NCBI GenBank assembly: GCA_002712305.1
Contig: PATE01000125.1
Coordinates: 1-40,257, forward strand
Reading direction: 5' to 3'
Length of the DNA: 40,257 bases
DNA from: Gemmatimonadota bacterium
GTDB lineage: Bacteria; Latescibacterota; UBA2968; UBA8231
A program made the translations under genes and the position numbers. Below the pieces are notes generated by a model. It was not told where the DNA came from. It ran no database searches and saw only the letters and a list, made by a program, of their open reading frames with translations. Below, piece by piece: positions 8,029 to 27,194 of this stretch (the stretch's first letter is position 1; each line of letters starts with the position of its first letter).

Positions 8029-8107
8029 CATGCAGACCCATCCGCTGCCGCCATTCGCACTGGCCGTCGCGCGAGTCCATCAGTTAGGGCGACGTTCCCA
8101 TCGAGGG

Positions 8108-8470
8108 TTACGAACTGTCTGCGTCGGTTCGATCCTCTTTGTCGGATGATTCCAGGGTCTGTGTGAATCGATCGATCCGCTCATCCGCATCGGCCAACAC
8201 CTGCTCGCGTCGCTGTTGGGCAATCAGCATCTCGTCGGCAATCTCCATCGCCGCGAGGATCGCCAGCTCAAGCGCCACTCCACGTCCGCGGTGGGAGGCT
8301 AATTTCCGCATCTTTTCGTCCAGATAGGCGGCGGCCTGCCGAATCTGATCGTCGTCGGTCGAAGAGCTCCCGATCCGGAAGGGCTGGTCGTAAATCTGTA
8401 CGATGAGGGGGGCACCCGAGGCACCCTGGGTGCCCGAACCTTCGTTAAGAGCCGTCATCGACGATGCCAT
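8108..8470 (-). CDS. zapA: Cell division protein ZapA
   Basis: ZapA binds and bundles FtsZ at the division ring. The core (VQIYDQPFRIGSSSTDDDQI, then AAYLDEKMRKLA, then LAILAAMEIADEML) follows the ZapA pattern: a small alpha/beta head and then a helix entering a C-terminal coiled coil, which ends in an acidic tail. 120 residues from ATG at 8470, or 116 from ATG at 8458; neither has a Shine-Dalgarno. A frame open to 8539 would run into the structured leader and is not favoured. It is transcribed alone, probably from the strong promoter at 8653-8681, and converges with infC. Confidence 0.85.
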   Translation of the reverse strand: MASSMTALNEGSGTQGASGAPLIVQIYDQPFRIGSSSTDDDQIRQAAAYLDEKMRKLASHRGRGVALELAILAAMEIADEMLIAQQRREQVLADADERIDRFTQTLESSDKEDRTDADSS

Positions 8471-8517
8471 CTGAATCGGGCTGGGAAGTTGACAAGATGG
8501 GCACCGGACGGGGGGAA

Positions 8518-8646
8518 CCGTACATGGAAATGAACGCAACGGGTAGTGCCCCTAAGGGCACCACCCGTGCGTCATTTAATGGGGGACTTCCGCGATCTCC
8601 CCTTACTCCCGGAAGCCCCCGCTACTGCGCGCATTACCACGTGGCG
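8518..8646 (-). ncRNA. Structured RNA leader upstream of zapA (candidate regulatory RNA)
   Basis: Read on the minus strand from the predicted start near 8646, ACGTGG (8642-8637) can pair with CCATGT (8527-8522) and close a two-hairpin domain. Hairpin 1 pairs 8611-8620 with 8581-8591 (five G-C pairs, a bulge, five more pairs). Hairpin 2 spans 8528-8577 and has about 20 pairs in four segments with small bulges and a CTAA-type loop. Sixteen bases before hairpin 1 stay unpaired. A C-rich stretch around 8509-8518 could pair with the 5' arm of hairpin 1 instead of its normal partner. No terminator lies before zapA, so it could be a 5' leader or a processed RNA. 6S RNA is an alternative, because ssrS neighbours zapA in some bacteria, but the fold is short for 6S and lacks its typical bubble. 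Confidence 0.5.
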
Positions 8647-8652
8647 GATCAC

Positions 8653-8681
8653 AATATATGGGGGCATTTTCTGGGTGTCAA
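8653..8681 (-). promoter_or_regulatory. Near-consensus sigma70 promoter for the zapA leader
   Basis: On the minus strand TTGACA (8681-8676) and TATATT (8658-8653) are exactly 17 bases apart. Two A-tracts (8695-8699 and 8705-8711), one helical turn apart, lie upstream of the -35 element and resemble an UP element. This is among the strongest-looking promoters in the window. Confidence 0.8.
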
Positions 8682-8935
8682 CCATCATCTTGCGTTTTTC
8701 AGTGTTTTTTTGCGAATGCCTAATACCTTCCAATGGAGGAATTGACGCCAATCGTCGTAACATGAAGATAATAAATAGGTTGCGAATTTGCATGGCGATT
8801 CTACGTCCCATCGTCGTTTCCGAAGTAAACCGGCTCCATCCGAGCGTTGCGCGAACCGAGGCGATGGCGGATCTTTCTCTCAGTGTCCCGCCGACGACGC
8901 CTGATAAGGTTTGTGGCGCATAAGGGGTTGTTTTC
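8682..8935. other. Intergenic region between zapA leader and FAD oxidase
   Basis: The first 30 bases hold the phased A/T tracts of the zapA promoter. A possible plus-strand promoter, TTGACG (8742-8747) and GATAAT (8767-8772), has a long 19-base spacer. AAGGGG (8922-8927) serves the oxidase start. An open frame across 8546-8923 on the plus strand has no coding character and overlaps the leader hairpins. Confidence 0.4.
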
Positions 8936-12519: not shown

Positions 12520-15500
12520 TTAGCGCCGGCGACCTTTGTCTCTGAGATGCAGACAGAGGGTGTGGATAAGACCTCTGAGCACGGTCGAGTGGGTGGCCAT
12601 GAGTTCGTAGAGTGCATCTCGATCGAGTGCAAGAAGCTGGGCGTCGTCGACGGCGGTGACCGAGGCGGAGTGGGGCTCCGGATCGAGGGTGGTCAGCTCT
12701 CCAAAGAGCTCTCCCGGTCCTAGTTCGACGAAGGTGTGCGTCTCATCGTGCACGCGGACCTTCCCGTCGGCCACGATGTACATCGTTCGTCCGAGGGCGC
12801 CTTTTTCGTACACAGGTGCCTCTGCAGCCACATCGAGTTGCTCGAGATAACCGGCAAGATCAGCCAGCACTTCTTCGGGTACTTCGGCGAAGATGCTGAC
12901 CGAGCGCAGGATCATCACCTTCTCGACCGTGAGGAACATGAGCGACTCCTTGTGGTCCTGAGTAGTTGTTTGTGTGAGCTGTTCTATCCATGCATCAGGA
13001 AAGGTGTCCCGTCGCGACGCGATCGATTCGTGCCAACCTTCGGGGGTTATTCGGCTCAAGGCCCAGGCGGCAGTCTGACGCACGAGTAGTTCGTCATCAT
13101 CGAGCGCTTCTACGACGACATCGGTCATCCCCTCCACGAGCAGCTTGTCGGTTGCGTACAGCGCGCACGCACGGATCCAGGGCTCGAGGCGGTGGCCACC
13201 CGGGACAATCATCAGTGCGAGACGCTGATCTCGTGCCATGCTCTGTTGTGGAAAATCTTCGTTCAACGACCGGCCCAGGGAAGTCTCGTTTCCTTCGAAC
13301 AGGCGCAGCAGGTGTCGGCGTGCGTCTCCGGTCAGGGTTGTTTCCAGAACCTCGAGGGCGTAGGCTCGCTGGTCGGCACTGGTGGCGAGTCTTTCGTCGG
13401 CGCGTTTGACATTCGAGCCACTGATGAAGGCGGACAGCAGCAGGCAGCGATGGCGGATCCCAGACAGCCGATGTCGAAGGCTGCGTTGCAGGGGCGCACA
13501 CTCGGAACCGCCCAAGTCGTTCAGTGAGGCCAGCACCCACACGGCGTCCGACAGTTCCTGCCACAGGATATCGTCGATATTGGCTCGATGGGCTTGGGAC
13601 CCTTTGAAGTCGGCCCGATCCAGCGCGTCGATGATGGCCGAGCGCAACCGACGGTCCTCCGAATCCATCCGCAGTTGGAGTGCTTCTACCGCGGCCTCAC
13701 CGCCGAGTTGCCCGCAGATCGCAGCGATTCGTGATCGAACATGGACAGGACGTTCCTGATCCGACAGGGCATGGATCAACGTGGGCAATACCTGTTCGCC
13801 ACTAGGCGACCAGGGCAGACGCGGCAGCGCGATGCAGGCCGATGTGATCGAGGCTGGCCAGGACATCCGGCCACAATCGAGGCGAAGAGATCTTGCCCGC
13901 TGCCACCAAGGCCTCCGTCCGCACCGTCGCATCTGGATCGGTCAGCAAGGGTCTCAGGTGCCGGTAGAATCCTCGATTTCCCACATCGCCTAGGACATGG
14001 GCGGTACGCACACGTTCCGTGGGATCTGCCGATCGTTCCAGGGCGAGCAAGCGTTCGCCCGCGACAAGGATTCCATCGACGCCCCCTGTACGCAGCAAAC
14101 CGATCATCGCCGCTTCTGCAATCAAGGGAGAGTCGGCATTGATGAATGGGCTCAGATCGTCGACGGCATCCGCTTCGGCGCTGGCGGCCAGCGCCAACAG
14201 CAGCGCTGTCTGCACTCTGGGCTCTTCCTCGGTGTCAATCTGGGCGCGGATGGCGCGTTCCAATTCAGGTGTGTCGCTCAGTGCCAGCCGCCGAGCGACC
14301 TCGCGTCGAACCTCAGGATGGGGATGGGTGATGAGCCCCTCGGACAGTTCGCTCACGGATACGTCGAAACGAGTTGTGAGCAGGTCGAAGGAGTACAGAA
14401 CCTCGTGGGGACGTTGGCTGGTCAGACGCGAGCGCAGGACCTGCTCCATTTCCGAATCGTCGCGACTTAGCGATACACCTTCCAGGCGCCGATGCTGAAG
14501 AGCTTCGGGCAGCGCCCGGCGATAGCCACGATCCACCCAGGAAGAAACGAACTTCCACCCGATCAGCAGAGCCAGGGTCAACAGCACCAGCGGAAGCGGA
14601 CCATCTCCCACCGAGGCGGCCAGCAACACCAACAAGCCGGCAGCGGCGCCCGACGCGATCGGTCCCACGACGCCGTCGACGGCCACCTGCGTTGCCAGGC
14701 GTTAATTGGATCGAAGAGGCTGATACAGCACGAGGAATGCGGGAGCCGTCAACGCGCCAAGCAGGACCAGGTCAGTCACCTTCGCGGCCACGGCAAACCA
14801 GAACAGAACACTCGTATTTATTGTCGTGGCCAGCACAACAAGACTTCCGGTCACACAAAGGGTGAGTGCCTGGCGGCGCGGGCGCATGGCCCGCGCAATC
14901 CCGTAGCGGCTGATGACCGGACCCGTGACGAGGGTCAACAAGAGAAAGGTCAAACTCTGGGCCACGCCGAGGAGGATACCAAACAACTGCGCCAGATCAT
15001 CTTGCCCGTGGATCTGATCCCGGGCCTGGTTCAGGAAGGCGAAATCGATGAGGCGATGACTCGCGACGCCGACCAGTGAAAGAACAAAGAGGGATCGAAC
15101 ATAGGGATGCCGACCCAGAGCGATGACCCCCGTGTCGGTCTGCGGGTCGTCCTCTTCTTCGCCCCGTCGTAAATGTTTCGCATGACCCCGCGCACAATCG
15201 CCTGTAGCACGACGATGGCGCCACCGATTCCTGCTGCCGACAGCAGCAGAAGATTCTGCGTGCCTACGATGGCTACGATCATCGGCGTGGCAAGTCCCCC
15301 ACCACAGTAGCGAGCAACTCCCCTGATCCGATCAGACCGAAGAGTCGTTTTCCCTGGCGCACGTTGAAGACCTGCCCCGCAATTCCCCACAGCTCCACAC
15401 TCAGAAGCGCTTTGCTCACGGCTTGAAAACCGAGCAGCAGAAAGGCCGGCCATGCAGCCTGAGTCAGGTCGAGGCCAAGCGCAATAACAGAAGGCAGCTG

Positions 15501-26576: not shown

Positions 26577-26653
26577 GCGGGAGTAGCTCAGTTGGCTAGA
26601 GCGCGAGCCTTCCAAGCTCGATGTCGCGGGTTCGAGTCCCGTTTCCCGCTCCA
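26577..26653 (+). tRNA. tRNA-Gly (anticodon TCC), CCA encoded
   Basis: A full cloverleaf: acceptor GCGGGAG pairs with TTCCCGC, with a final G-U. The anticodon stem CGAGC/GCTCG holds the loop CTTCCAA with anticodon TCC at 26611-26613, and the T-arm has GGTTCGAGTCC. Discriminator T and encoded CCA end at 26653. A small hairpin (26683-26698) lies in the spacer before the next tRNA. Confidence 0.96.
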
Positions 26654-26773
26654 TGTATTCTGCCGATGTCTTGGTGCGTGTGCGACGCTCTGGCGTCGTG
26701 CTTCATGAGTTGTGCGCTGTGTCGGCAATGGCAGTTTGGCATCCCTACCGACGTACATCGAGGCAAGACACGA

Positions 26774-26849
<76 letters not shown>

Positions 26850-26924
26850 GTTCCAGTGGATCTCGACCAACAACCATCAGCAGGGCGGGCGTCGTCGACC
26901 CAATGCCGACGTGAATAGAGAATC

Positions 26925-27074
26925 ATGCCCCGCGAACAGGTTACGCTCGAGTGCGAGGAGTGCAGTCATCGGAACTACAAGGTGACGAAGAATCGCCAGG
27001 TGACGGAGAGAGTAGAACTTCGGAAATACTGTCGACACTGCGGCCGACATACCGTGCATCGTGAGAGCCGCTGA
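26925..27074 (+). CDS. rpmG: 50S ribosomal protein L33
   Basis: A 49-residue protein (MPREQVTLECEECSHRNY...) between tRNA-Thr and tRNA-Trp. CEEC near the N-terminus and CRHC near the C-terminus form the four-cysteine zinc site of the C+ type of L33. KNRQVTERVELRKYC matches the family core. It binds 23S rRNA near the E site. L33 before tRNA-Trp and secE is a classical order. The ribosome-binding site is weak (ATAGAGAATC). Zinc-dependent bacteria often keep a second, zinc-free copy elsewhere, which this window cannot show. Confidence 0.95.
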   Translation: MPREQVTLECEECSHRNYKVTKNRQVTERVELRKYCRHCGRHTVHRESR

Positions 27075-27118
27075 TCCGCATTTGCTGTAGCAGAGAGTAG
27101 TACCAAGCAAGATTCGTT

Positions 27119-27194
27119 AGGCCTGTAGCTCAATTGGTAGAGCACCGGTCTCCAAAACCGGCGGTTGCAGGTTCAAGTCCTGCCGGGCCTGCCA
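27119..27194 (+). tRNA. tRNA-Trp (anticodon CCA), CCA tail encoded
   Basis: Acceptor AGGCCTG pairs with CGGGCCT. The anticodon stem CCGGT/ACCGG encloses CTCCAAA with anticodon CCA, and the T-arm has GCAGGTTCAAGTCCTGC. Discriminator G and encoded CCA end at 27194. It lies 41 bases before secE, as in many bacteria. Confidence 0.97.

Follow-up and report, generated by a model that had tools for sequence, protein, structure and literature searches.

The locus examined here raises the question of what precedes an additional zapA gene in an uncultured Latescibacterota bacterium, and whether it encodes a stable or regulatory RNA rather than a plain leader, as an original prediction made from the letters had proposed. 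The region was examined within a window, meaning the whole stretch of 40,257 nucleotides that was analyzed, and was compared with related genomes. Homologues under very strong constraint were found in 25 genomes, which supports a stable or regulatory RNA. The features of the locus are as follows, in window coordinates.

8108..8458, minus strand: zapA, an extra paralogue (PF05164, by Pfam); the start may be 8470 instead
8528..8577, minus strand: hairpin 2, found in the window's genus only (folding, alignments)
8575..8645, minus strand: core conserved RNA of ~70 nt (covariance model, 90.7 bits here; start inferred from promoter spacing)
8582..8620, minus strand: hairpin 1, an 11-bp stem plus 2 inner pairs (pair table, inter-genus identity)
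8637..8644, minus strand: palindrome CCACGTGG at the RNA 5' end (alignments)
8653..8658, minus strand: -10 hexamer TATATT, after a 17-base spacer (promoter search)
8676..8681, minus strand: -35 hexamer TTGACA (promoter search; kept across all 25 relatives)
8695..8711, minus strand: two A-tracts ~11 bp apart (8711-8705 and 8699-8695), UP-element-like (read from the sequence; function inferred)

Promoter and structure of the core RNA

Between positions 8100 and 9000, TTGACA-17-TATATT was the sole promoter-like site (0.4 in shuffles), with 11 of 12 consensus matches and, as read from the sequence, the same orientation as zapA. This bears out the minus-strand promoter that had been claimed, and the two A-tracts described as lying one helical turn apart were likewise confirmed. 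Across the relatives the -35 hexamer reads TTGACA in 24 of 25 and TTGACT in one. It was also noted that in L016, L020, L023 and L004 the promoter is flanked by an inverted-repeat pair such as CAATATATTG, situated 5' of the -35 hexamer and across the -10 hexamer. Among the genomes scanned this repeat was strong in L016, L020 and L023 and was not encountered in others, the window included, nor was it seen in the window's genus; in the genera that carry it, it is possibly an operator.

The order of elements downstream of the -35 hexamer is shared among the relatives. TTGACA is followed by a spacer of 16-17 bases, TATATT or a similar hexamer, a palindrome (usually CCACGTGG), a GCGCGCA-like segment and GGGGGCTTCCGGGA..AAGGGGAGATCGCGGAAGTCCCC; a T-run comes next in most genomes. 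Alignments of genus g5 revealed that the 5' palindrome had been replaced or extended by other palindromes, such as TTGCACGCGTGCAA. The core structure is a single terminal hairpin in ~70 nt, the loop of which includes the invariant AGGGGAGATC (8603-8594), and the predicted RNA length was 67-70 nt in all parsed genomes but one, with constant promoter spacing. The T-run 3' of hairpin 1 was present in most relatives and was weak or absent in G000 (the window's genome), G020 and G021.

The RNA from 8655 to 8500 was found to fold at -76.7 kcal/mol, compared to -59.7 +/- 4.0 for shuffles (z -4.29; 0 of 200 as good), and both the G-C-rich hairpin and the 50-base hairpin that had been described do exist. 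Prefix folds of many genomes, though not of all, contained an alternative CUUCC:GGGAG pairing, and across the relatives they revealed no conserved antiterminator.

Distribution across Latescibacterota

We found that a DNA search with positions 8500-8655 matched all 25 genomes examined from the window's family, which are Latescibacterota MAGs from seven genera. Every genome examined from one order of the phylum carried the element. With a 70-position covariance model of the core, each of the 25 family genomes yielded a single locus, in the expected orientation (62-99 bits), and there was no match in 39 other genomes of the phylum (22 of the same class and 17 of other classes). Matches on the opposite strand at the same hairpin are echoes of the palindrome, and the window's genome has one additional weak match, which is the terminator of groEL.

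A pattern scan of ~85,000 species returned Latescibacterota/Handelsmanbacteria records, some of which were labelled Gemmatimonadetes or simply bacterium, along with nine weak hits. The matches outside of Latescibacterota (L069, L072, L073, L075, L081 and L084-L087) were weak and lacked the promoter and tail context, several of them reading as sigma-factor-like coding sequence, and were judged to be due to chance. It was noted that one carrier of the element, CAMAVQ010000019.1 (L056), is titled Gemmatimonas phototrophica; this public label looks wrong because the record agrees with a genome from the window's own family. In the window and ten relatives, no Rfam family was identified at the curators' threshold, and the matches below it were at chance level. 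Searches of openly licensed papers yielded no description of an RNA preceding zapA in Latescibacterota and none of RNA control of zapA through termination. Judged from sequence comparison, the core RNA is a previously uncatalogued RNA family of an uncultured phylum.

Association with an additional zapA copy

The core RNA precedes zapA in all 24 genomes with downstream sequence, while the contig of the 25th ends. Beyond zapA, and convergent with it, lies infC, which in some genera gives way to a gene judged by eye to be SulP-like. The other side of the RNA is occupied by a FAD/FeS oxidase gene in divergent orientation. Three tRNA genes were also observed at window positions 26577-27191 on the plus strand. 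We agreed, judging by eye, with the earlier statement that zapA has no recognizable Shine-Dalgarno sequence. In the g3 genomes only ~22 nt separate the hairpin from the ATG, and therefore there is no room for a second promoter before zapA.

The family genomes were found to hold further zapA-like genes. At least G000, G011 and G022 possess another zapA elsewhere in the genome, in what appears to be the canonical pheT-zapB-like-zapA array (pheT and zapB-like named by eye), and the RNA-linked zapA is therefore an additional copy. Among the best zapA matches in the other orders of the class, no similar RNA was found before the gene, which in most cases either has a short leader or comes after a gene for a ZapB-like coiled coil.

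Sequence constraint on hairpin 1

We sought to characterize how strongly the element is constrained. The mean identity between genera was 93% for the 38-nt hairpin (minimum 85%), 71% for the 5' part, 56% for the zapA coding sequence and 47-50% for the flanks, so that the RNA element is under stronger sequence constraint than its protein-coding neighbor. Of the 13 hairpin pairs, ten are invariant and three vary on one side yet stay paired, with 0 of 286 cells broken. No two-sided (compensatory) change in the hairpin was found across the family alignment. Such an absence had been named beforehand as counting against the RNA, and it did occur; however, it is uninformative since a helix that hardly varies can be neither proved nor disproved by it.

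Hairpin 2 and the closing helix in the window's genus

Hairpin 2 comprises 50 bases in ~20 pairs (-37.2 kcal/mol; z -8.5) with AAATGA/TCATTT at its base and a U-rich 3' arm that ends in TCATTT. It was considered as a dispersed repeat and this was rejected, as it is single copy. In G000 and G020, both from the window's genus, hairpin 1 is no longer followed by a T-run and the sequence there reads ATTAAAT, and from these sequences it is possible that hairpin 2 serves as a replacement terminator. Relative to the start of the hairpin, identity between this pair is 92-98% over the stretch of about -60 to +100 and only 54-63% outside of it; in this genus, g1, the conserved block takes in hairpin 2 and then ends. 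Because identity drops outside of this block, the conserved unit of the window's genus is ~125 nt, near the limits that were originally proposed.

The original prediction further described a closed domain of about 115 nt, in which ACGTGG pairs with CCATGT. This pairing can form, but conservation of the closing helix is lacking: the other member of the window's genus has GTATGT in place of CCATGT, which breaks one pair and weakens another, so that two of the few substitutions between G000 and G020 fall in this helix, and its 3' strand does not exist in other genera. The closed domain was thus unsupported as a unit. What is shared among the genera is the first ~70 nt up to hairpin 1, hairpin 2 being specific to the genus. 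Likewise, the C-run (~8515-8510) suggested as a competitor for hairpin 1 is not conserved in other genera.

Possible roles of the RNA

From the conservation, location, promoter, hairpin and T-run, we infer that this lineage-specific, promoter-proximal RNA of ~70 nt could well be a transcription attenuator of the downstream zapA paralogue, a reading in which we place about even confidence. RNA polymerase would start at the strong sigma-70 promoter and make a short RNA, and in most genomes it would stop at hairpin 1 and its T-run. A G-C-rich hairpin with a U-run before the gene, by which an attenuator is recognized, was indeed found in most relatives. Because no separate promoter is visible for zapA, the gene would be transcribed only by those polymerases that pass the stop. 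The invariant loop of 16-18 nt and the 5' segment may bind a putative factor, be it a protein, an RNA or a small molecule, by which the level of read-through is set, while the terminated RNA would be abundant and could act elsewhere too. In the window's genus, where the T-run is gone, the very stable hairpin 2 with its U-rich 3' arm appears to take over the stop. The core RNA probably determines the amount of zapA produced. From its position the RNA family seems to gate a gene of cell division, and it provides a defined element for gene control in Latescibacterota.

Alternatively, the terminated ~70-nt RNA may act in trans, its invariant loop engaging a protein or other RNAs, with zapA merely receiving leftover read-through. 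The strong promoter, defined length and terminator, invariant loop and single copy would all suit such an RNA, as would the known precedent of a small RNA beside zapA, the 6S RNA of proteobacteria (PMC7641849). However, in the 80 sites examined that match the loop's complement exactly over 11 bases, no target gene recurs between genera, recurrences being within-genus only, the reversed control for this pattern being biased because it contains the rare CTAG. Pairing of the loop to the 16S tail was no better than for shuffles either: an anti-Shine-Dalgarno duplex of AAGGGGAGAUC with the 16S tail was rejected, its energy being matched by 26-42% of shuffles. We regard a trans role as a tentative possibility, and the cis role is ranked slightly above it because the element never occurs away from zapA. 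A broader proposal, in which this Latescibacterota order has in the RNA a new and abundant regulator that acts through its invariant loop on a core machine, such as RNA polymerase or the division apparatus, couples its own level to the extra ZapA and could stand in for 6S RNA, is speculative and in our estimate doubtful.

The textbook-like hairpin and T-run could also be no more than an ordinary intrinsic terminator or a DNA element, kept by chance or because drift is slow, and the same outer stem does recur after groEL. This is an unlikely explanation given that loop and stem are conserved between genera so far beyond zapA itself, and the groEL terminator, used as a control, had no match in any of the other 24 family genomes; termination alone therefore does not explain the conservation of hairpin 1. 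The zapA neighborhood had also suggested 6S RNA as possible with a poor fit, and that doubt was upheld. That no Rfam 6S was found in this class would leave a place for 6S RNA or a shortened local equivalent, but the RF00013 model matches neither the locus, nor the genome, nor the class, and a core of ~70 nt with one terminal hairpin contrasts with a rod of ~160-200 nt with a central bubble. Full-length 6S-like matches below threshold do exist elsewhere in the phylum, and we consider a 6S identity very improbable. These matches (L120 at G056:C35:15051-15226, and L121-L123; 22.7-33.5 bits) occur in four genomes from other classes and are probably divergent 6S RNAs that Rfam misses. A leader peptide gene is more improbable still: the window core is open as ATG CGC GCA GTA GCG ... 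TGA, but from genus to genus the frame is shifted by one-base indels located in the loop and the 5' segment, and every one of the six frames has a stop in 8-15 of the 25 genomes.

Comparison with known systems

In proteobacteria, 6S RNA follows zapA in the zapA-ssrS-ygfA neighborhood and is ~184 nt long (PMC7641849). The RNA described here resembles 6S RNA (RF00013) as a noncoding RNA linked to zapA, and differs from it in that it precedes the gene and is far shorter. It also shares with the CsrA sponges of the CsrB/RsmY type a pair of GGA motifs in the region of the hairpin loop (GGGA..AAGGGGAGA), whereas it possesses only one hairpin. A role as a CsrA sponge was rejected, as a csrA product was found in just 9 of the 25 genomes and was absent from the single-contig genomes G011 and G012. 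CsrA is patchy in the family, these nine genomes being spread over five of the seven genera.

Within the window's genome, the closest likeness to hairpin 1 is the groEL terminator (L147/L159, G000:C35 ~14722-14779), which has nearly the same outer stem (GGGGGCTTCCG/CGGAAGCCCCC) and a T-rich tail. Its loop, however, is short, and it is unconserved even within its genus. The preferred reading as an attenuator finds its counterpart in attenuators and terminator-ended 5' leaders, which have the same arrangement of a promoter, a short structured leader, an intrinsic terminator and a gene for which no separate promoter is evident. Unlike known attenuators, the leader in Latescibacterota has no recognized aptamer, T-box or leader peptide and no conserved antiterminator; as a target zapA is unusual, and the terminator hairpin and its loop are nearly invariant in sequence.
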